NCBI GenBank assembly: GCA_030998015.1
Contig: JARWMV010000004.1
Span: 480,975 to 544,974, forward strand
Source of the DNA: Ceratorhiza oryzae-sativae
Lineage: Eukaryota; Basidiomycota; Agaricomycetes; Cantharellales; Ceratobasidiaceae
Length of the DNA stretch: 64,000 bases
Direction: 5' to 3'
The position numbers were made by a program, and so were the translations under genes. The stretch's first letter is position 1. Every line of letters starts with the position of its first letter. Below the pieces are notes generated by a model. It was not told the DNA's origin and did not search any database. It saw only the letters and a list, made by a program, of their open reading frames with translations. Positions 17,476-37,246 of this stretch are shown piece by piece.

Positions 17476-18757
17476 CTACTTTTCTGGAGCATTCTTGAGG
17501 TGGGCTTTGGGTTGCCAGCTGTTTGTTTCTGCTCCATAGCCTTTCCATTTGACATAATATTCCAGTCTTCTACCCTTGTGTTGTGAGTCCAAAATCTCCT
17601 CTACTTTGTACTCCTCTTCTCCTTCAGGGGTTACCACTGGTGGTGCAGGGTTTGGATCCCTTTGGTAGTTGTCTGAGGGCTTGGGGTACAGGAGGGAGAC
17701 ATGGAAGGCTGGGTGCACCTTCATGGATTTGGGCAGATACAATTCAAAGGTGTTTTTCCCAATTTGTTTAGTGACCACATATGGGCCAAATCACCTATTG
17801 CCCAGTTTTTTTGAAGGCTGAAGGGTCTTGATATTTGACCAATCCAGAAAGACTTTTGATCCAACCTCAATTCTAGGGGCCTCACAATGCTTTTGGTTGT
17901 AGTATTCCAAGTGAGAGCAATTTGCAATTGTGAGTTCTGCCTTGGCTTTGTCATGAATAGCTTTGAGGTGGTCTGCATATTGGTCAGCCTGAGGGACACT
18001 GCTTTCCTTGGTATTTCCCACTGTAAAGTCTGGGTTGTAACCATAGCAGGTGAAGAACAGTGAGTGTTGGGAGCCTGAGTGCTTCCCAGTGTTGTATGCA
18101 AATTCTTACCTGGGTAACAAAGCAACCCAGTCTGTTTGTTGGTGATAGATGTAGTGGCAAAGGTAGATTTTGACAAACTGGTTAAGTTGTTTGCTTTGTC
18201 CATCTACCTGAGGGCAATAGGCTGTTGAGTAATGTGGCTTGATCCCCAGACATTTGTAGACCTGGTGTAGGAATTTTGCATTGAAGTTGGGTCCTTGGTC
18301 AGAGATGGTTTTCCAGGGCAGTCCATGCAGTTTCCAGACAAAGTTGACCAACAGGTTGGCAATGTCTACTGCTGAGGCATTCAAGTGTGTTGGAATAAAG
18401 TGCACCATTTTGGATAGTCAGTCTACCACAGTGAGTATTGCATCATAACCTTCTGACATTGGTAATCCAGTAATCAAATCATAAGTGATCTCCTCCCACA
18501 GTTTGTTGGGTAAGTTTATGGATTGGAGGAACCTGAGGGGAGCTTGGTTTGAGTGCTTGTTTTGGATACACAAGTTGCATGCCTGTACATATTTTACAAT
18601 GGACTGCTTCATCCCAGACCAGTAATAGTCTCAAGAGACCAAGTTGAAGGTTCTGAAATGCCCTGGGTGCCCTGCTGCAGGATTGTCATGCCAGCTTTCT
18701 ATGACAGCTTGCATGATTTCCAACTTGTTTGGTATGTACACTTGCTTACAAAATTGA
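17476..18757 (-). pseudogene. Truncated chromovirus pol: integrase and chromodomain
   Basis: Minus-strand 3' part of a Ty3/gypsy pol closely related to element B (compare 35940-37208). In order: zinc-binding HHCC region with CNLCIQNKHSNQAPLRF, integrase core with EEITYDLITGLPMSEGYDA and ISDQGPNFNAKFLHQVYK, then STAYCPQVDGQSKQLNQF (Glu helix). Then come the integrase C-terminal region (KSMKVHPAFHVSLLYPKP) and a chromodomain (YYVKWKGYGAETNSW). The copy is broken by TGA codons and frame changes and stops where the Tc1 terminal repeat begins. RT and RNase H parts are missing; the matching part is not found on the far side of the Tc1 element. Confidence 0.85.
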
Positions 18758-19045: not shown

Positions 19046-19381
19046 ATGCATGGGAGACACATCAATGAGCCTACCAAGGCATTGATTCCCAATGTGCAAG
19101 CTCAGGGGCATAGTACATACAATATTGGGGCCCAGTTCCACATTAACCCCACTACCATTAGCCATATTGCAAAAGAGCCCAAAAAAACACAAAGCTCCAG
19201 CTCAAAGAAGCCTAAAGTGGATTGCACACACAAACTTACCCCTTCTGATGCTTGATTTGCTGCCCTCTTGCTTGCTTGCACTCAAAATTTTGCTGCAGTT
19301 GACCAGCAGGAAGAGTTCTTCCCCTCTGTTCACCCTCAAACTGTGTGCCAAGCCCTTTGTGATGTTGGTTTACATGCATAT
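19046..19381 (+). pseudogene. Tc1 transposase, N-terminal half
   Basis: Helix-turn-helix DNA-binding part: INEPTKALIPNVQAQGHSTY, then FHINPTTISHIAKEPKK. An in-frame TGA (19253) follows, then AAVDQQEEFFPSVHPQTVCQ and ALCDVGLHAY, where element A interrupts. Order and residues parallel the 55200-54800 region of the intact Tc1 copy (SFHKIGPTVRVHPTTASRIY, FPHVSVQTVRRNLKGIGLRAY). Confidence 0.8.
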
Positions 19382-20042
19382 TGTTATGACCCTTCAAACA
19401 GACATAACAAAATAACTGAATATTTTTACAGATTTATGGCATTTTTCCTAAGTGGAACAAGCCATAAACAAGGTCACGTGACCTCGGCACTTAACCGGCG
19501 CTTACGGTGGTTACCCTGAACTTGCTCCAGCATTTCTCTCCCTTGTTACTTGGAGTGAGGAGCAAGTTGTCACGTGATATTGGCGCTTACAGCAGGATCA
19601 CATGACCTCAGTGCCTACGGTGGTTACCCTGAACTCGCTCCAGCATTTCTCTCCATTGTTACTTGGAGCGAGGAGCAAGTTGTCACATGATCTTGGCGCT
19701 TATGGCAGGATCACATGACCTCAGCACCTACCCCTCAGACCTTGTGCAGCTCTATAAGATTTGGAGCTGCACAAACTTAAGACAAACAATTACCTAACCC
19801 ATAGTACTATACATAACCTACACCTACTGCAGATGTGCTTAGATAATACATCCGCAGCCACCGCAGCCACATATATATAAGGATAAAGCAAGACTGGACC
19901 CTCAGCTTGCTTTATCTTGTCAACCACCATAGACCATAGCAAACACTGTAACTAGAACACTCAATACATACTGCATAGCACCAAACTGTCAACGCAGCCA
20001 CTACTTAAGTGCTCCACAGGGAGCCTCCAGAGGGTCACGACA
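19382..20042 (+). repeat. 5' LTR of element A
   Basis: 661 bp. It contains about two tandem copies of a roughly 120-bp unit with GGTGGTTACCCTGAACT and TGACCTCRGCRCTTA-type sequence, the E-box-like CACGTGAC, and two TATA-like sites (CTCTATAAGATT near 19751 and CATATATATAAGG near 19870). The 3' LTR has one copy of the unit, hence its shorter length. Confidence 0.9.
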
Positions 20043-20162
20043 TTATAAAGCAAGCTCTTAACTTAACTAGTGGCGAACATAAGTATACTACACAGATACT
20101 AAGGGCTGAGTACACAGAAAACCAGCTAACTCCTGTGATACATAAGAGAACACAAAGAAACT

Positions 20163-21993
20163 ATGTCACAGAGACCACAAACTCGATCTCAAAGCAGAGT
20201 GGCAAATAGTAGGCCACAATCACCCAAACCCATTGCTTCCCCAGAGGCTGAAGGTAACCCAGATGAGACCCTCCAAGGAATGCCAGGGGGGTTGCCACAA
20301 AACCCACGACCAGTGGCTCAACCCAACCCCACTCGGGCCCCCATCCTGGGAGGGGAAATAGGGGGAATACCACTCCACAGCCCTCAACCGCCAATTCACC
20401 TGATAAATCCAGACCCAGAAGATATCTCAAATCCAGAGAGGGATGAGGTAGAAGATATGACCCGAACCATATACAAACAAGGCACAGCCTTGGCGGAAGA
20501 GGCAAGGACACAACCCCAGCCAGGTCCCAGAACCATAGCCACTGCCAACCCTATTCACACCATTGCCACCGCCATCAGGGCGGGGCTCAAGGAACTTAGA
20601 GACAATAATCATAGGGAACTAGAAAAGGCAATCACAGGTATAAATCAGTGTCAAATATCACTAACCCGACAAGAAGGAAACGAGGACTGGATGGTAAGGT
20701 CAATGGAAACATCCAACAAAAATGTCCTCTATGTGTCAAAGAACCAGGACGACCTAAAGGCAGAACTGGGGAACCTGATAAAAGAATTAAAGGACATCTC
20801 CATGGAAATAAACCGGGTACTGGGAATGCAAGAGCGAAAGCTCGAAAGCTTAGAGAAGAAAACTGAAAACACAGGGGAGATCCTAATCGCACTAGAACAA
20901 CGGTAACCGATCTAGGAAATGAGCTCCGAAAACAACTGAAGCAGGAAGGCCAAGGGAAAGGACAGAAGAAACCAGGGGAAGAACTAGGGTGGTCATAGGA
21001 AGCCCCTCACGATCCCCCTCAGCCTCCCCAGTACGAACACCCTTTCTCTGGGAAGAACCTTCCAGGCTGAGTCCACAATAAGACCCCAACAGAACCTCCA
21101 TCCCAAGCAAACCAACCTACCCTTGCTGCAAACCACACTCCTAAGGAGGCGACTAGGGAGACCCAGCAAATTTAATGGGAAAAAGGGGAAGGAAGCAGAG
21201 AACTTCATAATCAGCATGGAACTTTTCTTTGCTGACTACGACGAATCAGCCTTTGATGACCGAAAAAGATATCTGCTGTGCTAATGAACATGGAGGAGGG
21301 GGAAGCAGCAAACTGGGCACAACCTTACCGCCGGAAACTACTAGCAGGCGAACACACAGGTATTCTTGCATCCTGGAAGGATTTCAGGAAGGGATTCCTG
21401 GATGCTTTTAATGACCCAGTCATAAAGGAAAAGACCATCCGGAAACTAAGGAAATTAACACAGACCAAGAGTGCATTGGATTATGCTACCCAATTCCGGA
21501 TCCTGATCCAAGAGGTAGACTGGAACCAGGAAGCCCTCAAGGACCAATTCAGGGAAGGTTTAAAACCCAAAGTACGACAAGAGATCTTAAGGATTGAAGT
21601 ACTGGCAAATGAGGCTGAAGGTCCATCATATACCTTAGATCAATTAATTGACTTTGCCTGCAAAATGGATGACATGCAGTTTGCAAACCAGAAAATGAAT
21701 ACAAGGACCAGCAACTCATCAAATTCAACCTGGGCACCAGCAAATACAAACAAGGGGGGAACAAGCCTTTAGGGACCAGCAGCAAACAGGGGAATACCCA
21801 AACCAACAACATGGTAAGGATACCAAACAGTGAAAAGGACAGGCGAAGGAAAGAAGGACTCTGTATCAAATGCGGTAAATCAGGGCATGTCCTGAAGGAG
21901 TGCCGAGGCCAGTGGACCTACGACAAAGCTAAGATACAAGGGAAGGCCAGCAGACAAGTTGAGGAAGAAAGCAGCTCTGAGTCGGAAAACTAA
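20163..21993 (+). pseudogene. Element A gag (frameshifted)
   Basis: Starts MSQRPQTRSQSRVANSRPQS. A Pro-rich, coiled-coil N-terminal part runs open to 20906. The frame then changes and the capsid part appears at 21278-21772 (ASWKDFRKGFLDAFNDPV, LDYATQFRILIQEVDWNQEA). A further change leads to the zinc knuckle CIKCGKSGHVLKEC (CX2CX4HX4C) near 21857-21900. Ends at 21993. Domain order is that of a normal Ty3/gypsy Gag; at least two frame changes disrupt it. Confidence 0.8.
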
Positions 21994-22109
21994 TTGGTCC
22001 TACCACTTCCATGTTGGAGGACCCCAATATAACCCCTACCGCAGATGTATGTTACCTCAAGAAGTCTAGTAATCAATCAATAATATACACTACGGTAGAG
22101 GGAATCATG

Positions 22110-25100
22110 GAACCAGCTAAAGACGCTGATTGACTCAGGATCTTCAACCAACTTCATCGATAAGGCCTATTCAAGGGAAAAAGGGATTCCAACCACTCCC
22201 CTCAAACACAAGAAATCAATTGTGGCCATTGATGGAAATGAAATCAAGGATGCCATAGAAGAAAGGGCAGAACTAAACATCGAAGTGGAAGGGAAGACAC
22301 TAAAATGCTCCCTTTATGTAATGACCCTAGGTGACACAGACATAGTCCTAGGGAAAGAATGGCTTGAAGAAGCAGAACCTATCATAGATTGGAAAGACCT
22401 TACCATCTCATACCCAGACAAATCAAGGCAAGGGCAGCAAGTGAAAGCCTACAAATCCCAGAAGAATTTAGGGATTTTGAAGACCTATTTGGGGAAGAAG
22501 GTTTCCAGAACTTCCACCCCACCGAGGTAACCTAGACTTCAAAATGGACCTGATCGAGGGAGCGGAGCTGCCAAAGCCTGCAAAGAGGTACAGTATGTTG
22601 CCAGCAGAAACAAAGGCGCTCAGGGAGTACCTAGAGGAGGAACTAAGAAACGGAAAATAAGGCCCAGCCAGTCAGTTGTAGCTGCACCCTGTTTCTATGT
22701 GAACAAAGCAGATGGAGGGCTTAGGTTGGTAGTCGACTACCGTAAGATGAATGACATCACCAAGCCAGACAGGTTTCCACTTCCAATCCAAATAGAATTG
22801 ATTGAGAGACTGAAGGATGCAACCATCTATTCAAAAATGGATGTTCGATGGGGGTTCAACAACATCAGGGTAAAAGAGGGAGACGAATGGAAAACAGCTT
22901 TCAGGACAGGAGAAGGCCAGTTTGAATGCTTGGTCATGCCATTCGGAGTAAAAGAAGGACCAAGAACCTTTACCAGGTTCATGATGGAAAAGTTCCGTGA
23001 CATAATAGACGATTATGTGGTAATCTACATGGACGATGTACTAGTGTTTTCCAGAAACAGGGAAGAACATGTACAACATGTCAGGGAAGTGTTAAGAAGA
23101 ATGAGGGAAAACCACCTCTTCCTCAAACCACACAAGTGTCAGTTCTTTGTGAAGGAGGTAAGCTTCATTGGAATTGTCATATCCCCAGAAGGGATATCGA
23201 TGGAAAAGGAAAAGGTAAAGGCAGTTCTAGAATGGCCAGAACCTAACACAGTAAAAGAAGTCCAAGCCTTCCTAGGCTTCGTGGGGTTCTATAGAAGGTG
23301 GATAGAGAAGTTTAGTACCTTAGCCAAACCCCTCACAGATCTCACCCAAAAAGATGTCAAATTCCTGTGGGAAAGAAAACAACAGGAAGCATTTGAAGCT
23401 ATCAAAGAAGCAGTAGCAAGAGAACCGGTCCTGATCCACCCAAACCCAAACAGGCCATACATACTGGAAACAGATGCCTCAGGAGTGGCCATGGGGGCGG
23501 TACTAAGCCAAAAGGGTGATGACAACCGATTGCATCCAATTGCCTTCCTATCGAAGAGCTTCACCCCACCAGAGAAAAATTATGACACCTACGACAAGGA
23601 GTTGCTTGCAATTGTTAGGTCCTTAGAGCACTGGAGGTTATACTTAGAAGGGACAGAGGAACCTATTGTGATATACACTGACCATAGGAACCTCCAGTAC
23701 TGGCAAAATGCCCAGATGTGGAATAGAAGGCATGCCAGATGGTATCTCACTCTGGCACCCTTCAATTTTCAGATTGTGTATAGACCAGGGAAACTCTCAC
23801 AGAAGCCAGATGCCCTTTCCAGAAGGAGCGACCATGGGGATACCCCTATGGAACCACAGATCATGATTCCAGAAGAAAGGTTCATAGGTTTCATGGCAGA
23901 AGTACAGGGGAATTTCTGGGAAGCTTAAAGAAGCTCAGGAAGAAGACGAATCTATCAGATCCTTAAGGCTGAGTGGCAAATAAAGAACAACTACCGCCCT
24001 CAGTACAGAAGGAATTTAGACGGTATGAAATGAAGGAGGGCCTATTAAGGTATGACATAGGCTCTACATCCCAGATGACAAGGACTTGAGGTTGAGTCTC
24101 CTTGAGGAGTGCCATGACGCCCCTGGCAGGTCATCAGGGACAAGCCCGAACACTAGAATTACTATCAAGGGATTACTATTGGCCAGGAATGAAGGCCCAA
24201 GTAAACCGATACTGGAATCTTGTGAAACATGTCAAAGAAGCAAAGGACACAAACAAGGCACTCCCCTGAAGTCCTTACCAATCCCATGGAAACCATGGGC
24301 AGATGTCGCATATGATTTCATCGTCAAATTACCTGTCTCAAAGGGGTACAAGTATCTTGACAGTTGTAGATCGCTTCTCTCCGGCAGGCCCATTTTGTAC
24401 CATGTCTGGAGAGCACCAATGCAGAAGAACTGGCAGAAATATTCATAAGGGAAGTATGGAGACATCACGGACCCCAGAAACCACTGTCTCAGACCGAGGG
24501 CCAACCTTTAACAGCCAATTCCTAAAAGCCCTATACAAAGGAATTGGGACAAAGCCCAGATTCTCCACTGCTTTCCATCCAGAAACAGATGGTCTGTCAG
24601 AAAGGACAAATCAATGGGTAGAAGGGTTCTTAAGAACCTTCTGCAATTATAGACAAGATGATTGGGTAAAATGGTTACCCATTGCCAAGTTCTGCCATAA
24701 CAACCACGTAAATGCTACAACAGGACAAACCCCATTTGAAACGGTATATGGAAAAAACCCAAGATGGGTTGTCCAAGAGGGAGAAGAACCGTCTGAGGCA
24801 CCTGCTGCAGACAACATGCGTAATCAAATGGAAAAAGTATGGGATGAGGCAAGAGCCTCAATGGAATTACACCAACAAATGGAAAAGAAAGGGAGGGAAT
24901 TCAAGGTAGGAGACAAGTGTTATGACCCGCCTAGCAGACATAACCTAACAACCGAATATTGTACAGATTTATGGCATTTTTCCTGAAGCGGAACAAACCA
25001 TAAACAGGATCACGTGATCTCGGCGCTTACCCAACGATTAAGCACTGGTGGTTACCCTGAACTCACTCCAGTGTTTCTCTCCCATGTTACCTGGAGCGAG

Positions 25101-26077
25101 GAGCGAGTTGTCACGTGATCTCGGCGCTTACCAACGACTAAGCGCCAGTGGTTACCCTGAACTCACTCCAGCGTTTCTCTCCCATGTTACCTGGAGCGAG
25201 GAGCAAGTTGTCACATGACCTCAGCGCTTATCCAGCGATTAAGCGCTGGGTGCTTAAGTCCAAAAGGTCACATGACCCTCAGACCTCGCGCGGCTCTATA
25301 AGATTCGGAGCTGCACAAACTTAGGATAAACAATTACCTAAGACCTAGTACTATATAGAACCTATAACTGCTATAGACGGCGCTTAGGAAAGAGGGGCCA
25401 CCACAGCAACCGCAGTCACATGTATATAAGGGGAGTAAAGCAAGACTGAACGCCTCAGCTTGCTTTATCTTGTCAACCACCATAGACCATAGCAAACACT
25501 GTAACTAGAACGCTCAATACATACTGCATAGCACCAAACTGTAAACGCAGCCACTACTTAAGTGCTCCACAAGGGAGCCTCCAGAGGGTCACAACAACAA
25601 GGTTTGGCTGCTCCTAACAAACCTCTCGTCCAAGAGACTCTCCAAGAAATTGGACAACTGAAAGGGGGCCCTTTTGAAATCACAGAAAAGATCTCATCCC
25701 ATGCATATCGCCTGGACCTACCTAAAACCATATGTGTACACAATGTATTCCATGTAAATCTCCTCTTGCCATTCACAGAAGATAAAGACTTCCAAAGAAG
25801 GCAGGCCAAACCACCACCAATCATAACAGAAGAAGGAGAGGAGGAGTATGAGGTGGACCACATTGCAAATTATGAATGGCGGAATGGCGAGCTGTTTTAC
25901 CAAATCAGATGGAAGGGCTATGACCCAATAGAAGACACAATGGAACGTGCCAGCAAGTTTGCTGACATGAAAGAGGTTCTAAATGACTTGCAAAGGTGCT
26001 TACCAGCTGCACCAATGCCAGTCAAGACGAGTCAGCACTCAGGTGACTCAAAAGGCAGGCCAAAGAGAACCAAATGA
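22110..26077 (+). pseudogene. Element A pol: PR-RT-RNase H-IN-chromodomain, split by an LTR
   Basis: Protease: LIDSGSSTNFID near 22130. Reverse transcriptase: open frame 22699-23928 with LRLVVDYRKMND, FECLVMPFGVKEGP and the catalytic YMDDVLVFS. RNase H: YILETDASGVAMGAVLS and IYTDHRNLQYW. Integrase: zinc-binding [33 protein letters not shown] (first Asp), VSDRGPTFNSQFLKALY (second Asp) and FHPETDGLSERTNQWVEGF (Glu). A C-terminal chromodomain near 25840-25950 (VDHIANYEWRNGELFYQIRW) identifies a chromovirus, a group known to target heterochromatin. Frame changes occur around 23930-24300, and the solo LTR at 24918 interrupts the integrase after EFKVGDK. Confidence 0.88.
24918..25596 (+). repeat. 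Solo LTR nested in element A pol
   Basis: 679 bp, TGTTATGACC to TCACAACA, of the same family as the element A LTRs. A perfect 5-bp target duplication ACAAG flanks it (24913-24917 and 25597-25601). Removing it with one ACAAG rejoins the integrase reading frame. It must be younger than element A and arose by LTR-LTR recombination of a later insertion. It holds more copies of the internal tandem unit than the 3' LTR. Confidence 0.93.
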
Positions 26078-27003
26078 GGATCTGGAAAGCTTTAAAAGGA
26101 GCCATCCAGGATACCCAAGAAAGGCCAGAGCCCACTCTACCACCTCACTTGCACTACAATACACCTGCGAAACCCCAAAACATGCCTTTCATCACTCACC
26201 CAGTCGCACATCCCAACTGTTACACACCACTTGCTGAAAATCAGGTGGCCCCACTTTGGCAGCCACCCACCACTAGGTGGCCAGCACCCTACCCTGGCAG
26301 GGAAAATTGTCCTAAACCAGGGATGTACTGCTCCAGTGTGGAAGACGCCCAGAGGTATGCTGAGCAACTGTTGCCAGGGGCTAACCTAGTGTACATCCCA
26401 AAGAAGTTAAGGGATGAAAGGAACTGGATCGACGATGACAAGTACCTGGATCCCAGGTTAGGGGTCCTGACATGGCATGGAAGCCAGAAGCCAACAATGA
26501 GAAACGCCTTGCTAAGAACACCAATGTATGTTGTTGACAATATTGTGGGACCAACGGTTGATGTGGTGGCCAAGGCAGCAAGACGACAGAGGAGGGCCAC
26601 AGGCCAAATGGCAGACAGGGGGGACTGGGAGGTGGAGCACTGGGCCAAGGCATTGTTGGAAAAATGGAAGTTGACACCAGCTGCACCATATGTGGGACTG
26701 CTTGAAGCAACTACTACTGATGAGATGTTTACTGCTATCAGGACAAAGCAGGCAAACATGAGCAACTTCTGAAATTGGGTGAAGGTGCACCCAAACAAAA
26801 ACACCAATTACAACACCGATATGACAAGCCTTACATCAAGCCTAGAATCACTGGTTGTGGCTGAGGAAGAAGCCAAGCCAGTAATAAAGGAACCCACCCT
26901 GGACCCAGCTGCAGAGGAAGCCAAACAGGACTGGGACCAGTGGGAAAATGAGCTTGTCAAAGCTCTGGAGGAGGTGCCACTGTTGGAACCAGCCCCCATA
27001 TGA
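26074..27003 (+). CDS. Cargo ORF 1 of element A, function unknown
   Basis: One frame of 309 codons with a single in-frame TGA (26770-26772). Its first ATG overlaps the pol stop. I recognise no family. Composition: Pro/His-rich N-terminus, then a likely folded part with ENCPKPGMYCSSVEDAQRYA, LPGANLVYIPKKLRDERNW, LGVLTWHGSQKP and a basic helix VDVVAKAARRQRRATG. The C-terminus is acidic (ELVKALEEVPLLEPAPI). It lies between pol and the 3' LTR, on the same strand as the Rep-like frame and opposite to the antisense gene. It could be a structural or partner protein of the Rep-like module, or an env-position accessory ORF; neither is shown. Confidence 0.5.
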
Positions 27004-27084
27004 CCACTTTGCCTCCCACAGATTTTTTCTTGAATGTATAAGAGTTTTATTTTTACACATCAAACTTAATACATTTTTTACTCT

Positions 27085-27617
27085 CTATTTACGTTTGCCC
27101 TTGAGGGGCTGGGTATAGGGCTTCTTGCCTTTTTTATCCTTCTTATTGGTCTGAACAACTGACTGGGTAGTGGGCTGCAGCCAAGGGGCCTCCCCCCCTG
27201 GGAAGTTGGCCATGTTGTTCTGGAAACACCCAGAACCAGACACTGCAAAGGGCGAAGCCTCATCAAACAAGGGAGCAGAGCCCTCCTCAAAGAATTCAGC
27301 AAGAGCAGCCTGGTGAGACCGCTCCTCAAAGGACTTGTAGTCCTGATCAACAAGCACCCAGACATGCTCAAGGGTGGCCTCATGGGCCCAACCATCGAGG
27401 AGGATGTGCTCTTCTACAGAACAAGTTAGCAATGTGAGAACAATGAAGAATGAGCACATGTACCTGGCACCCCACAGAAGAACCAATCCCTGACACCTCC
27501 ATAGAAGTCTTCAATGGAGGTGTTGCACATGGCATCGCAGTAGGCACAGTACTCCCCCTCAGGGAGAGACCAGCAGGTGCAGTCAAGGGGATTGTAGTTA
27601 AGGGAAATCATGCACAT
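27085..27617 (-). CDS. Antisense spliced gene inside element A, function unknown
   Basis: Two exons on the minus strand, 27617-27464 and 27413-27085, joined by a 50-nt intron (27463-27414). The intron has donor GTACATG, a branch-like TTGCTAACTT and acceptor TTCTGTAG. Splicing removes a stop and keeps the frame, giving about 161 residues. Exon 1 is Cys-rich (CTCWSLPEGEYCAYCDAMC). Exon 2 has LLDGWAHEATLEHVWVLVDQ, an acidic middle and a strongly basic C-terminus (KKDKKGKKPYTQPLKGKRK) that could be a nuclear signal or bind nucleic acid. No family recognised. Being antisense, its intron would not be removed from the retroelement's genomic RNA, which would explain why it survives. It converges with cargo ORF 1. 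Confidence 0.5.
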
Positions 27618-27734
27618 AGTAAAGACAGGATGAGGAAGGAAAACAACAAAACCACAAACATTAAAAAATCATGGTGCAACACAATAACTTGCACAAACAT
27701 CAAAACAAGGTCTGGTCAGGTGAGATAAACAGAC

Positions 27735-27857
27735 ACGTGACCATCTGCCAGAAAACAAACAACAAAAGCATGGGAATCACATGACCTAGCCTAGTCATGT
27801 GACCACCTGCCAGAAAACAAACAACAAAGCATGGGAATCACATGACCTAGCCTAGTC
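27735..27857. repeat. Two 61-62 bp direct repeats between the antisense gene and the Rep-like frame
   Basis: Copies at 27735-27796 and 27797-27857, nearly identical. Each contains GCCAGAAAACAAACAACAAA and ends CACATGACCTAGCCTAGTC; the copy boundary forms the inverted repeat CACATGA...TCATGTG. They lie in the divergent intergenic region, where a shared promoter or a Rep-binding iteron array would be expected. The CACGTGACC/CACATGACC core also recurs in the element A LTRs, so a transcription-factor site is an alternative. Confidence 0.8.
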
Positions 27858-28142
27858 ATGTGAATATATGCTATCCCCTAACTACCGGAGGGGTTGGAGA
27901 GGGGGCACTGACTGAAGTGGAGGAGCGGAGGCCCCAAGTGTAGCAAGGAGAAAGGCTGATGTGGGGGAACGCAGGAAGGGCACCCCTCAGAGATGCGTCA
28001 TAACCAGCACAAGCCTACATCAGGAAACCATGTGATCACAACAACCAGAAAAGGGTATATCTAGGGGACACCTTTGGGGGTAAAAGGGGCTATCATTTCA
28101 TGCCCTCCCCACAAGACGCATCTACCTCAAAAAACACCAACA

Positions 28143-29429
28143 ATGCTAAGCGAAGATGGCTCGAATGTGGGAACACCCCAGCCAAACGAATCAAGTGCAG
28201 GGTGGAGGTCGGCATCGCCATCGCTGGCGCCCTCAGAATCAAGCTGAGCCCCCTCACCTGCTTCTACACAGCTTACACTGATGGATCGCAGGTCCAAAGA
28301 GCTGACCGAAACCACACAGGCCCCCTGATTCCATGTCCAGACCAGGGCAGTGTTGCTGACCTGGTTGAAGCTACATGATCAGCCCTCAAGTGGGCTCGCT
28401 GCCTGATACAAGGTGTTCTGCTGCCACCAGCCCAATCACTGGGCAACCTTAGCTGTGGTCGAATGGCACAACCTGGAGGAGCCAAACTACGACCCAACCC
28501 AGCCCCTGCACGTCCACACCCTCTCCATCAGTCAGGAATGGAAGGGCAGGTGGAACACCCAGAACGCGGGGTTCTGGGACTTTGAGGGGCAACACCCCAA
28601 CATATGGCCCAAAGACCTCAAGGACAGGCCAGGAGGCAACCCAGCAAGGGATGCCTTCAACTATCTCTGGAAGGATGTTGGAGCTAATGGCAAGGAGATA
28701 GAGGATTTGATGGCAGGGGACCTGACCTTGGAAAGGTTGGAGGAGATCTTGGTGAAGGGAAAGGGTGGAAAACAGTCAAGGATGGAGGCAGACTTGGAGG
28801 ATGGGACAGAGATTGTCACCTTGGCGACAAAACAGGAGTACTACCAGGCATTCAAGTGCCTCCGCCCCCTCCAGATGGTGACAATGTGGAACTTGGTATG
28901 AGCATATGCCAAGTACACATACAAGGAAGACTGGGGTTGCATGCCTGCAATCCCTGTGGAGTTAGAGGTCCCAGAAGACTGGGAGCACATTGACCAAACA
29001 GACAGATGGTTTGCCAAGGAGGTCGAGAAGAGGGGAAGAGGGGTGCGCCATCACATCCTGGTGATAGAAGGAGAAACTGGAATAGGGAAAACAGCATATG
29101 CACAATCCAAGGGCTGCCACAGCCAGATGTGCAATGTGTGGAATGTGGGCAACTTGTCGGAAGATGCTGACATTTGGATCTTCAACAACATGGTCCAGTC
29201 AAACAGGAAGTACTCACTCAAGGCCCTGAGCCAGTATGAGGCGGACTTCACAGGCAGGTACATGCACGTGAAATCGATGAAGGTACAGTCGACAGTTATT
29301 TTGGGAAATAGCTGGTTGGCAATCATGAAGTGTTGGTTGGACATAGAGGGGGAAGAAGGGGACTTATGGGTATCAAGAAATGTGGAATGGGTGTATGCAG
29401 GAGGAAAACCATTCTTTGTATTCCCTTAG
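28143..29429 (+). pseudogene. Rep-like HUH endonuclease / SF3 helicase frame (CRESS-DNA-virus type)
   Basis: A single 429-codon frame with no frameshift, interrupted only by TGA codons at 28245, 28326, 28404 and 28899. In order it shows a Ser/Pro-rich N-terminus; motif I LLTW (28350-28364); motif II LHVH, the metal-binding HxH (28506-28517); motif III YLWK with the nicking Tyr (28662-28673). The helicase domain follows, with Walker A GETGIGKT (29070-29093), a Walker B position IWIFNN (29169-29189) and motif C VILGN ending in the sensor Asn (29307-29309). Order and spacing are those of eukaryotic rolling-circle Reps. The Walker B acidic pair reads Asn-Asn, both codons AAC after C, as CpG to CpA decay would leave. 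It sits between pol and the 3' LTR of element A. The present copy is inactive. Closest viral group cannot be named from sequence alone. Confidence 0.75.
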
Positions 29430-29549
29430 AATAATTTACTGTACTGTACAACTTCTGCTATGCCCATCCAAACAGTTGGGGCATTCTGAGAAGAAGCAGA
29501 TGAATTCTCACCCCTAAATAACCTCCACAACAAAGAAAAGAAAAACAAT

Positions 29550-29670
29550 CTCATGTAACAGAGAGGTTAAGGGGTCTAGCCTGACTCAGCCTGACCTCAT
29601 TGAACAATACTGAATCAGCCAAAAGGTTGTTGGTTCAAGTCCAGCACCCTTCACCTCCTTGGTGCATGAG
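29550..29670 (+). other. tRNA-like sequence before the 3' LTR of element A
   Basis: CTCATGT (29550) can pair with GCATGAG (29664-29670). An A-box-like stretch AGAGAGGTTAAGGGG follows the 5' end, and a T-arm-like GTTGGTTCAAGTCCAGC with a B-box GGTTCAAGTCC lies near 29631. About 18 extra bases separate the T arm from the 3' acceptor strand, and the middle is long, as in Ser/Leu-type or pseudo-tRNAs. Probably a tRNA-derived relic or Pol III promoter, not a functional tRNA. Confidence 0.4.
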
Positions 29671-29724
29671 ATTCCTTTTGCATAAGGATCTAAACCATGT
29701 CTTGAGGTCCCCCAAGACATGTCC

Positions 29725-29738
29725 AAAGGGGGGGATAA
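29725..29738 (+). promoter_or_regulatory. Polypurine tract of element A
   Basis: AAAGGGGGGGATAA immediately precedes the 3' LTR, where plus-strand DNA synthesis is primed in LTR retroelements. Confidence 0.7.
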
Positions 29739-30294
29739 TGTTATGACCTGTCAAATGGACATAACAAAATAACTGAATATTTTTACAGATTTATGGCATT
29801 TTTCCTAAGTGGAACAAGCCATAAACAAGGTCACATGACCTCAGTGCTTAACTGGCGCTTATGGTGGTTACCCTGAACTTGCTCCAGCATTTCTCTCCCT
29901 TGTTACTTGGAGCGAGGAGTGAGTTGTCACATGATCTCAGCACTTATGGCAGGATCATGTGACCTCAGCGCCTACCCCTTGGACCTCGCATGGCTCTATA
30001 AGATTCAGAGCTGCACAAACTTAAGACTAACAATTACCTAACCCATAGTACTATACATAACCTACACCTACTGTGGATTGTGCTTAGATAATACATCCGC
30101 AGCCACCACAGTTGCAGGCATATATAAGAAGGATAAAGCGAGACTGGACACCTCAGCTTGCTTTATCTTGTCAACCACCATAGACCATAGCAAACACTGT
30201 AACTAGAACACTCAATACATACCACATAGCACCAAACTGTCAACGCAGCCACTACTTAAGTGCTTTGCAAGGAAGCATCTAGAGGGTCACAACA
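29739..30294 (+). repeat. 3' LTR of element A
   Basis: 556 bp, TGTTATGACC to TCACAACA, followed by target duplication CATAT (30295-30299). Shorter than the 5' LTR because it has one copy of the internal tandem unit. Many differences from the 5' LTR are C/T or G/A at CpG sites. Confidence 0.9.
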
Positions 30295-30299
30295 CATAT

Positions 30300-36700: not shown

Positions 36701-37208
36701 CCTCAAGGAAATCCAAGAAGAGGCCAAGGCTGCTCTAATGATTGCCAATCGAACATACTCCGAATATTATAATTGGAAGCATTGTGAAGCACCAAAGATC
36801 AAAGTCGGATCAAAGGCCTTCCTAGATGGCTCAAATATCAAAACCATACGCCTATCTAAGAAATTGGATAACAGGTGTTTTGGACCATACAAAGTACTGG
36901 AACAAATTGGAAAACATACTTTCAAACTGGAATTACCCAAATCCATGAAGGTTCACCCAGTATTCCACACTTCACTCCTGTTCCCAAAACCAATAGATGA
37001 CTATAACCAGCAACCTGTACCCGTTCCACTGGTGGTCACTCCTGATGGTGAAGAAGAATTTGAAGTTGAAGAAATCCTGGACTCTTGAAAGGTTGGAAGA
37101 AGATTGGAGTATTACATCAAATGGAAAGGCTATGGACCAGAAGAAAACCTATGGTTACCTAAAGCTGAACTCAAGAATGCACCTGAACAAGTCAAAGAAT
37201 TCCACTGA
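33706..37208 (+). pseudogene. Element B pol: PR-RT-RNase H-IN-chromodomain, decayed by TGA codons
   Basis: Protease AMIDSGTSSCFIHPHL near 33870. [32 protein letters not shown] and the catalytic pair in [14 protein letters not shown]. RNase H: EFILECDASDFATGAIL and [12 protein letters not shown]. Integrase: HDNPAAGHPGHF, ITYDLITGLPMSEGYDA, PQVDGQSKRLNRFVEIYL, and a C-terminal region with KSMKVHPVFHTSLLFPKP. The chromodomain ends with IKWKGYGPEENLWLPKAE. In-frame TGA codons at 33928, 34552, 34975, 35494, 35698, 35701, about 36037, 36250 and 37086; one base lost near 36355 shifts the integrase core. No TAA or TAG interrupts the frame. Confidence 0.9.
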
Positions 37209-37246
37209 CTCCATCCCAATGCACTCAGACCTTGATGGGGGGGAAG

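Follow-up and report, generated by a model that had tools for sequence, protein, structure and literature searches.

Does an LTR retrotransposon in the genome of the basidiomycete Ceratorhiza oryzae-sativae carry a Rep as a gene of its own, and if so, what might the element use it for? The question is raised by one locus in a stretch of 64,000 nucleotides (hereafter the window), where a first-pass annotation, made from the letters of the DNA, had noted a frame resembling an HUH endonuclease/SF3 helicase and had proposed that it was captured by a Ty3/gypsy element and moved with it. LTR retrotransposons and rolling-circle replicons are usually seen as separate worlds, and a Rep-like gene that is selected and amplified would link both. 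As such it would show a route for the genes of circular DNA viruses through fungal genomes, and if its protein acts on the element, this retroelement would possess a second means of copying DNA. The explanation that we regard as very likely is that a Ty3/gypsy lineage captured a block made of the Rep-like gene and an antisense gene, and that the element may use the Rep-like protein as a nickase/helicase.

The element and its Rep-like gene

At 19382-30294 the window contains a complete Ty3/gypsy element of the chromodomain type (Table 1). Both LTRs have TG...CA ends, the target duplication CATAT stands on either side as is typical of chromoviruses, and gag, protease, reverse transcriptase, RNase H, integrase and chromodomain follow each other in chromovirus order. 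In Pfam searches the copy matched Retrotrans_gag and Ty3_capsid, RVP_2, RVT_1, two RT RNase H families, SH3_Tf2-1 and Chromo; the integrase core, decayed and interrupted in this copy, gave a weak match only (E 0.0044). Inside the integrase, a later insertion event has left a nested solo LTR belonging to a second subtype, and the positions equivalent to 24917 and 25597 are joined in 17 of 20 intact loci fetched from the genome, these 17 being the ones that span the site. The two window LTRs differ at 47 of 546 aligned columns, with 43 of the 47 differences being transitions, and the LTR pair of another copy, L019, at 13 of 586 (gap columns left out in both cases). Tandem repeats of about 113 bp occur inside the LTRs of the element, and the 3' LTR ranges from 578 to 895 bp in 18 copies. 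The window also contains other gypsy pol ends at 17536-17829 (minus strand) and 36882-37232 (plus strand). Short introns, chromodomain elements of the Ty3/gypsy kind and decay of CpG type fit a filamentous basidiomycete.

The Rep-like gene lies where the annotation had put it, between pol and the 3' LTR of an element with CATAT on both sides, and its 429 codons are indeed present as one collinear frame that shows LLTW, LHVH, YLWK, GETGIGKT and the Asn of motif C. In-frame stops follow residues 34, 61, 87 and 252, every one of them TGA, and the Walker B position reads IFNNM as against ILDDM in the intact copies fetched. No other match in the window besides 28140-29426 was returned by tblastn with an intact Rep-like protein. 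The whole genome (48.8 Mb in 253 contigs) was searched with the stretch between the third and the fourth stop, and 150 of 197 candidate matches were scored. These are 70 to 100 percent identical and contain the gene whole or in part; the 429-codon frame is open from stop to stop in 25 of the 150, and a frame of at least 426 codons is found in 32. Twenty of the 25 open copies were fetched, and the intact copies referred to below are these, picked for openness.

Table 1. Positions of the element and its genes within the window.
Feature	Position	Strand	Remark
5' target-site duplication CATAT	19377-19381	.	same five bases at 30295-30299
5' LTR (TGTTATGAC...GTCACGACA)	19382-20042	+	internal repeats of ~113 bp
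gag piece (Retrotrans_gag, Ty3_capsid)	21260-21769	+	Pfam
Protease, reverse transcriptase, RNase H frames	22099-23925	+	Pfam
Integrase piece, split by nested solo LTR	24270-24917	+	
Nested solo LTR, related LTR subtype	24918-25596	+	duplication ACAAG at 24913-24917 and 25597-25601
Integrase C-terminus and chromodomain (pol end)	25597-26077	+	
ORF2, without known domain	26074-26772	+	overlaps pol stop (ATGA); divergent version in outgroup copies too
Antisense gene exon 2 (basic C-terminus)	27085-27413	-	
Antisense gene intron, 50 nt	27414-27463	-	GTATGT...CTGTAG in 15 of 16 modelled copies, GTACGT in one
Antisense gene exon 1 (Cys-rich N-terminus)	27464-27617	-	window limits from comparison with intact copies
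Intergenic region of the divergent genes	27618-28099	.	paired TCACATGAC...GTCATGTGA near-palindromes, 27777-27802 and 27838-27863
Overlapping upstream frame with basic stretch	28100-28378	+	alternative or additional N-terminus
Rep-like gene	28143-29429	+	429 codons open stop to stop in intact copies; four TGA stops in window copy
Motif I position	28353-28370	+	LLTWSK in 18 of 20 intact copies fetched
Motif II, HxH	28506-28520	+	LHVHA in most intact copies
GRS-like stretch	28569-28616	+	RFWDFEGQHPNILPKD in L015 and others
Motif III, YxxK (FNYLWK)	28650-28673	+	
Walker A	29070-29105	+	GETGTGKTAYAR in L015 and others
Walker B position	29178-29192	+	ILDDM in intact copies, decayed in window copy
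Motif C (ILGN)	29298-29309	+	
Polypurine tract	29725-29738	+	L044 and outgroup show same layout
3' LTR	29739-30294	+	
3' target-site duplication CATAT	30295-30299	.	

Identity of the protein

Searches of the window pieces and the intact copies against Pfam, NCBIfam and PHROGs gave no HUH or SF3 family, an outcome that the annotation had itself counted against a Rep. Sub-cut-off matches of NTPase-type profiles lie over Walker A, the best being nSTAND3 (E 0.012), and the sequences of PDB contain nothing below E 1 for the Rep-like pieces and copies. The Gemini_AL1 profile (PF00799) matched neither the frame nor anything across the genome, and it was also silent in the control genomes. A single match (E 4) came from tblastn of plasmids; a scan of IMG/VR with alignment produced 133 pattern stretches, none confirmed, and a Walker A pattern scan of the same collection 12 contigs that were read as other P-loop proteins. 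Two window pieces were also modelled structurally, without relatives, and the models were uninformative (mean pLDDT 44 and 37). Since no HUH or SF3 profile family was found, homology to Reps rests on the ordered seven-motif test.

For this test, position weights were taken from 22 rows of published Rep motif tables of genomoviruses and relatives. Of the tables as excerpted, Table 3 of PMC8703526 gave 16 of its 17 genomovirus rows (one identical row was dropped), and Table 2 of PMC10821283 all three genomovirus rows and three of four cluster J rows, with Walker B trimmed by one leading letter; one cluster J row and the cluster K row, which has a differing GRS, were omitted. A program placed the seven motifs in order. 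Its choices for copies L017, L015 and L010 were LLTWSK, LHIHA or LHVHA, a stretch with FWDFEGQHPNILPKD at its end, EAFNYLWK or DAFNYLWK, GETGTGKTAYAR, ILDDM and ILGN. L017 scored 80.8, a value reached by none of 3000 shuffles (mean 7.0, sd 6.3, maximum 30.5) and by none of 100 control ORFs of at least 300 aa, the best of which, a P-loop protein, scored 49.2; the control set excluded 24 ORFs with Rep-like words, which scored 32.9 to 90.7. The four endonuclease motifs taken alone scored 37.5, which again none of 3000 shuffles reached (mean 5.7, sd 4.9, maximum 32.6). The seven-motif pattern is beyond chance.

It might be argued from the silent HUH and SF3 profiles of the libraries searched that the protein is not a Rep at all, and that the motifs coincide in an unrelated P-loop protein. 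We regard this as highly improbable, with the ordered score more than 11 sd above the shuffles, the endonuclease motifs alone beyond every shuffle, and P-loop controls that stay at or below 49.2. The RepA of the Bifidobacterium plasmid p4M, a Viral_Rep protein, reached 16.9 on six motifs compared with 68.3 for L015, so that not every Rep or P-loop protein passes the test. This RepA scored no better than its own shuffles (mean 12.5, sd 5.4); it is therefore a contrast and not a support, and it does not work as a general positive control for Reps. The difference from L015 points to a resemblance of the Rep-like gene to the geminivirus/genomovirus side, and in hhalign only the P-loop of the two proteins matched (probability 6.2). 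From the annotated HUH/SF3 identity, then, the ordered motifs were borne out and a match to the corresponding profiles was not.

The residues themselves are well kept. HxH and YLWK are present in all 20 intact copies and the GKT of Walker A in 17 of the 20, in a set picked for openness, and the SF3 set of the intact copies consists of the Walker A GETGTGKT, the Walker B ILDDM and the motif C ILGN. The GRS between motifs II and III reads FWDFEGQHPNILP, where published strings are of the FDVEGFHPNI type, and motif I, LLTWSK, retains the T of the pattern uuTYxQ and has W and K in place of the genomovirus Y and Q.

Comparison with known systems

An HUH endonuclease together with a helicase is found in a eukaryotic mobile element of another kind, the Helitron, which is defined by a RepHel protein with an SF1 helicase and has neither target duplication nor LTRs. 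The LTRs, the target duplication and the SF3-type motifs rule out a Helitron here, and unlike in Helitrons, motif III of the Rep-like protein is a YxxK with one tyrosine, followed by helicase motifs of SF3 type.

With the Reps of geminiviruses and genomoviruses (class Repensiviricetes) the protein has in common the seven ordered motif positions and a GRS-like HPNI stretch between motifs II and III, as far as the excerpted motif tables go (PMC8703526, PMC10821283). It differs from them in having LLTWSK instead of LLTYxQ, in the lack of a Gemini_AL1 match and in its place inside an LTR element. Unlike in the genomes of these viruses, no nonanucleotide was found in the block and no capsid gene was recognised; the gene that is divergent from the Rep-like gene, as a capsid gene would be, encodes about 163 aa and shows no known domain.

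A fungal parallel comes from Tuber melanosporum, in which the excerpted report describes 42 Rep genes or remnants, most of them in a TIR transposon, and from Laccaria bicolor with five (PMC3198968). As in Tuber, a geminivirus-like Rep has been multiplied in a fungal genome by a transposon; the Tuber carrier has terminal inverted repeats and transposase frames (PMC3198968), whereas here we find LTR ends, pol and target duplications, and a full open frame in 25 of the 150 scored matches. A Tuber-type geminivirus-like TIR transposon is ruled out by the LTR ends and pol. Extra genes in LTR retrotransposons are known from bdelloid rotifers (captured ORF3 enzymes, PMC5408684), from an orchid Ty3/Gypsy element with an AlkB demethylase (PMC9289625) and from fungal chromoviruses with a dUTPase or a further ORF without known function (PMC2864245). 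Such an extra gene is what these three cases, two of them named as Ty3/gypsy, share with the present element; the available excerpts of these reports name no rolling-circle Rep and no captured divergent gene pair. A literature search, with most subscription papers and all bioRxiv preprints outside its scope, returned no report of such a Rep inside an LTR retrotransposon in the text portions available (see also PMC11052389, PMC6668415, PMC8780604, PMC7758297).

Association of the gene with pol

If the gene moved with the retrotransposon, it should accompany pol, and the annotation had suggested looking for this co-occurrence. Within the same genome, 150 of 739 candidate pol C-terminal places were scored, and at least 129 of the 150 have a Rep-like match downstream of the pol end, on the same strand and within 9 kb (median 2.8 kb). 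Nine of the 21 pol ends without a listed match are divergent pols of 52 to 68 percent identity. A Rep-like gene absent from the lists is in fact present at one of these nine (C238:1008350, locus L042), which makes the count a lower bound. The 3' LTR begins 297-311 bp past the Rep-like gene in 19 of the 20 intact loci according to pattern placement; in the remaining one, L024, the pattern missed the LTR and blastn shows it there.

The same arrangement is found in a sister family (B; L042 and L044), where the pol end is 66-67 percent identical and is followed by ORF2, the antisense gene and the Rep-like gene in this order. In L044 the Rep-like gene is 70 percent identical and is followed by the polypurine tract and the LTR, and in L042 it is broken by another insertion. 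Three outgroup copies (L043, L045 and L047; pol end 53-58 percent) pass by a short junction from ORF2 to the polypurine tract and the LTR start, with a foreign insert inside ORF2 in L045. Neither the Rep-like nor the antisense gene was detected by tblastn in the 5 kb fetched at these three loci, and a Rep profile search without filters on the same 5 kb gave a best E of 0.4. At L046 parts of the antisense gene survive, and the 5 kb fetched there show no Rep-like match; this locus and L041 are interrupted by other elements and were therefore left out of the block comparison. Divergent relatives of ORF2 occur in all seven related loci fetched (L041-L047).

The simplest order of events is a gain of the block in the ancestor of A and B, and the block could instead have been lost from the outgroup. 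Capture by the retrotransposon and movement with it are thus upheld by the pol ends, by the same place of the gene in both families and by three outgroup copies without it.

In some family A copies the 3' part of the element has diverged further than pol. In the pairs L015/L011, L025/L010 and L019/L013, pol is 98-99 percent and the Rep-like gene 89 percent identical, with the pol comparison of L019 and L013 covering 180 bases only. Such diverged 3' types on a nearly uniform pol suggest, from the sequences compared, that recombination between co-packaged RNAs may have taken place.

The two-gene block and its introns

The idea of a captured gene held as far as capture is concerned, and had to be changed in its unit: what is carried is a two-gene divergent block and not the Rep-like gene alone. 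The second gene, antisense to the element, could be modelled in 16 of the 20 fetched copies, all 16 with the intron. Its spliced product has 163 aa in 12 of the 16, and the unspliced reading halts after 63 aa in every one. Exon 2 was scored at 150 of 182 candidate places. At 140 of the 150 it has no internal stop, and at 142 a divergent Rep-like gene follows within 9 kb downstream, at a median distance of 1.4 kb. Profile scans recognised no known domain in the protein with its Cys-rich start and basic end.

A second intron lies in the Rep-like gene. It measures 61 bp (GTAAGC...ACATAG) and is present in all three family B copies examined, namely L042, L044 and a second copy in L016, and it is missing from family A with flank length and frame unchanged; the frame is continuous in all 20 fetched copies. 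Family A thus lacks only the intron on the sense strand and has kept the antisense one, as predicted by passage through a spliced genomic RNA, and the pattern would give a natural record of intron loss via an RNA intermediate. The 61-bp intron may instead have been gained in family B.

Taking loss in family A as the preferred reading, we propose the following course. A chromodomain Ty3/gypsy lineage would have taken up a divergent two-gene block between ORF2 and the polypurine tract, and this block would have comprised a geminivirus/genomovirus-like Rep with putative HUH endonuclease and SF3 helicase, a spliced antisense gene and a regulatory region between them. Judging from family B, it probably came in as DNA and had an intron in each of its two genes. 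The Rep intron, which lies on the sense strand, would then have disappeared from family A when the RNA intermediate of the element was spliced, with the antisense intron surviving, and the block would have spread along with the element, with purifying selection keeping the Rep-like protein.

Selection on the Rep-like gene

The annotation had also suspected past selection on the frame, and the substitutions agree with this. Between L015 and L044, counted at non-CpG-type sites from base 240 of the Rep frame onward, changes affect the first codon position in 42 of 245 cases, the second in 16 of 244 and the third in 113 of 244. All six A-B pairs compared show a dN of 0.19. Their dS is saturated except in two pairs, which have values of 2.16 and 2.35 and dN/dS ratios of 0.087 and 0.082. 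Three pairs within A have dN of 0.036-0.039, dS of 0.56-0.63 and ratios of 0.058-0.066, and in both sets CpG decay inflates dS and is uncorrected. The ratio is thus 0.06-0.09 where it is computable; for the pol end of the window copy against L044 it is 0.19, likewise uncorrected for CpG decay. These values, together with the third-position bias, support purifying selection on the Rep-like protein among copies that were picked for openness. Antisense constraint is weaker, with a ratio of 0.13 for L017-L011 and of 0.3 to 0.7 for other pairs, which have few codons, frameshifted copies or near-saturated dS. At bases -45 to 150 of the Rep frame, the changes, small in number, suit another frame starting at the ATG at 28100 better than the Rep frame, so that this part may contain an overlapping frame, an additional intron or a frameshift.

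It might then be asked if the block is a mere passenger, a host or viral gene block carried along without use, given that 118 of the 150 scored matches lack an open frame of at least 426 aa. This we consider very improbable, since purifying selection is strong both between and within families, the block has the same place in two families, and the catalytic residues are found in all 20 fetched copies, though these were picked for openness. Instead, we infer that the protein is an active nickase/helicase used by the element.

Possible use by the element

A clue to such a use may lie in a short motif, TCAYRTGA, which is concentrated in two parts of the element. It occurs 101 times in 7.7 kb of intergenic region (13.1 per kb) and 90 times in 12.9 kb of 3' LTR (7.0 per kb), compared with 11 words in 25.3 kb of Rep-like gene (0.43 per kb), two in 20.9 kb of pol/ORF2 (0.10 per kb) and 10 in the 53 kb of the window outside the element (0.19 per kb). 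The counts for the element come from 19 of the 20 loci, with the LTR covered in 18. In L044 the LTR part has four words and the intergenic region two, and in the outgroup copies L043, L045 and L047 the LTR stretches contain none. Hence a common factor likely serves both the block and the LTR through this motif, and this factor may be the Rep itself, the product of the antisense gene or an E-box factor of the host.

With the motif words as candidate binding sites, the use that we would tentatively put first, as a possibility short of a firm expectation, is that the protein acts on extrachromosomal or LTR-containing DNA of the element. A bolder version is a hybrid element that is reverse-transcribed from its LTRs and whose circular or integrated DNA is in addition nicked by the Rep and copied as a rolling circle. 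The Rep would then recognise TCAYRTGA-type sites in the block and the LTRs; we consider this version unlikely. Nonanucleotides of the TAATATTAC type (four patterns, in 20 family A copies and L044) are absent from the block except for one TAATATTAT in L024. A hairpin of the paired TCACATGAC and GTCATGTGA copies was rejected as a proven origin, because each copy is itself a near-palindrome and any two of them therefore resemble a hairpin.

Head-to-tail arrays, which rolling-circle copying might leave behind, were rejected as well. Among 163 places, neighbours within 30 kb stand on the same strand in 16 cases and on opposite strands in 14, and with no excess at unit length there is no sign of such arrays. 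Two pairs are near unit length. In the one on C20, whose members lie 10,365 bp from each other, an LTR adjoins an internal stretch without its first 564 bases, which recombination explains; in the one on C66 a truncated Rep-like match is followed by an element with its own LTR end and an intact internal start, which would fit the insertion of one element into another.

A different use would be directed against the host. Some geminivirus Reps push cells to DNA replication or lower cytosine methylation, and by promoting replication or dampening methylation the Rep-like protein could aid a methylated retrotransposon. The copies show many R/W/Q, S/L and A/T/V exchanges as from CpG decay, which together with the predominance of transitions in the window LTR pair suggests methylation of the element, and the lack of a recognised replication origin would suit this role too. 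Nevertheless it appears rather unlikely to us: endonuclease and helicase motifs are both conserved, which pure anti-silencing would not require, and the three intact copies checked have no LxCxE motif.

Finally, a noncoding stretch of about 130 bases (window 27860-28010) is alike in families A and B. In Rfam it had one match (E 2.6), far under the gathering score, and in some family A copies, for example L012 and L024, the stretch is doubled.
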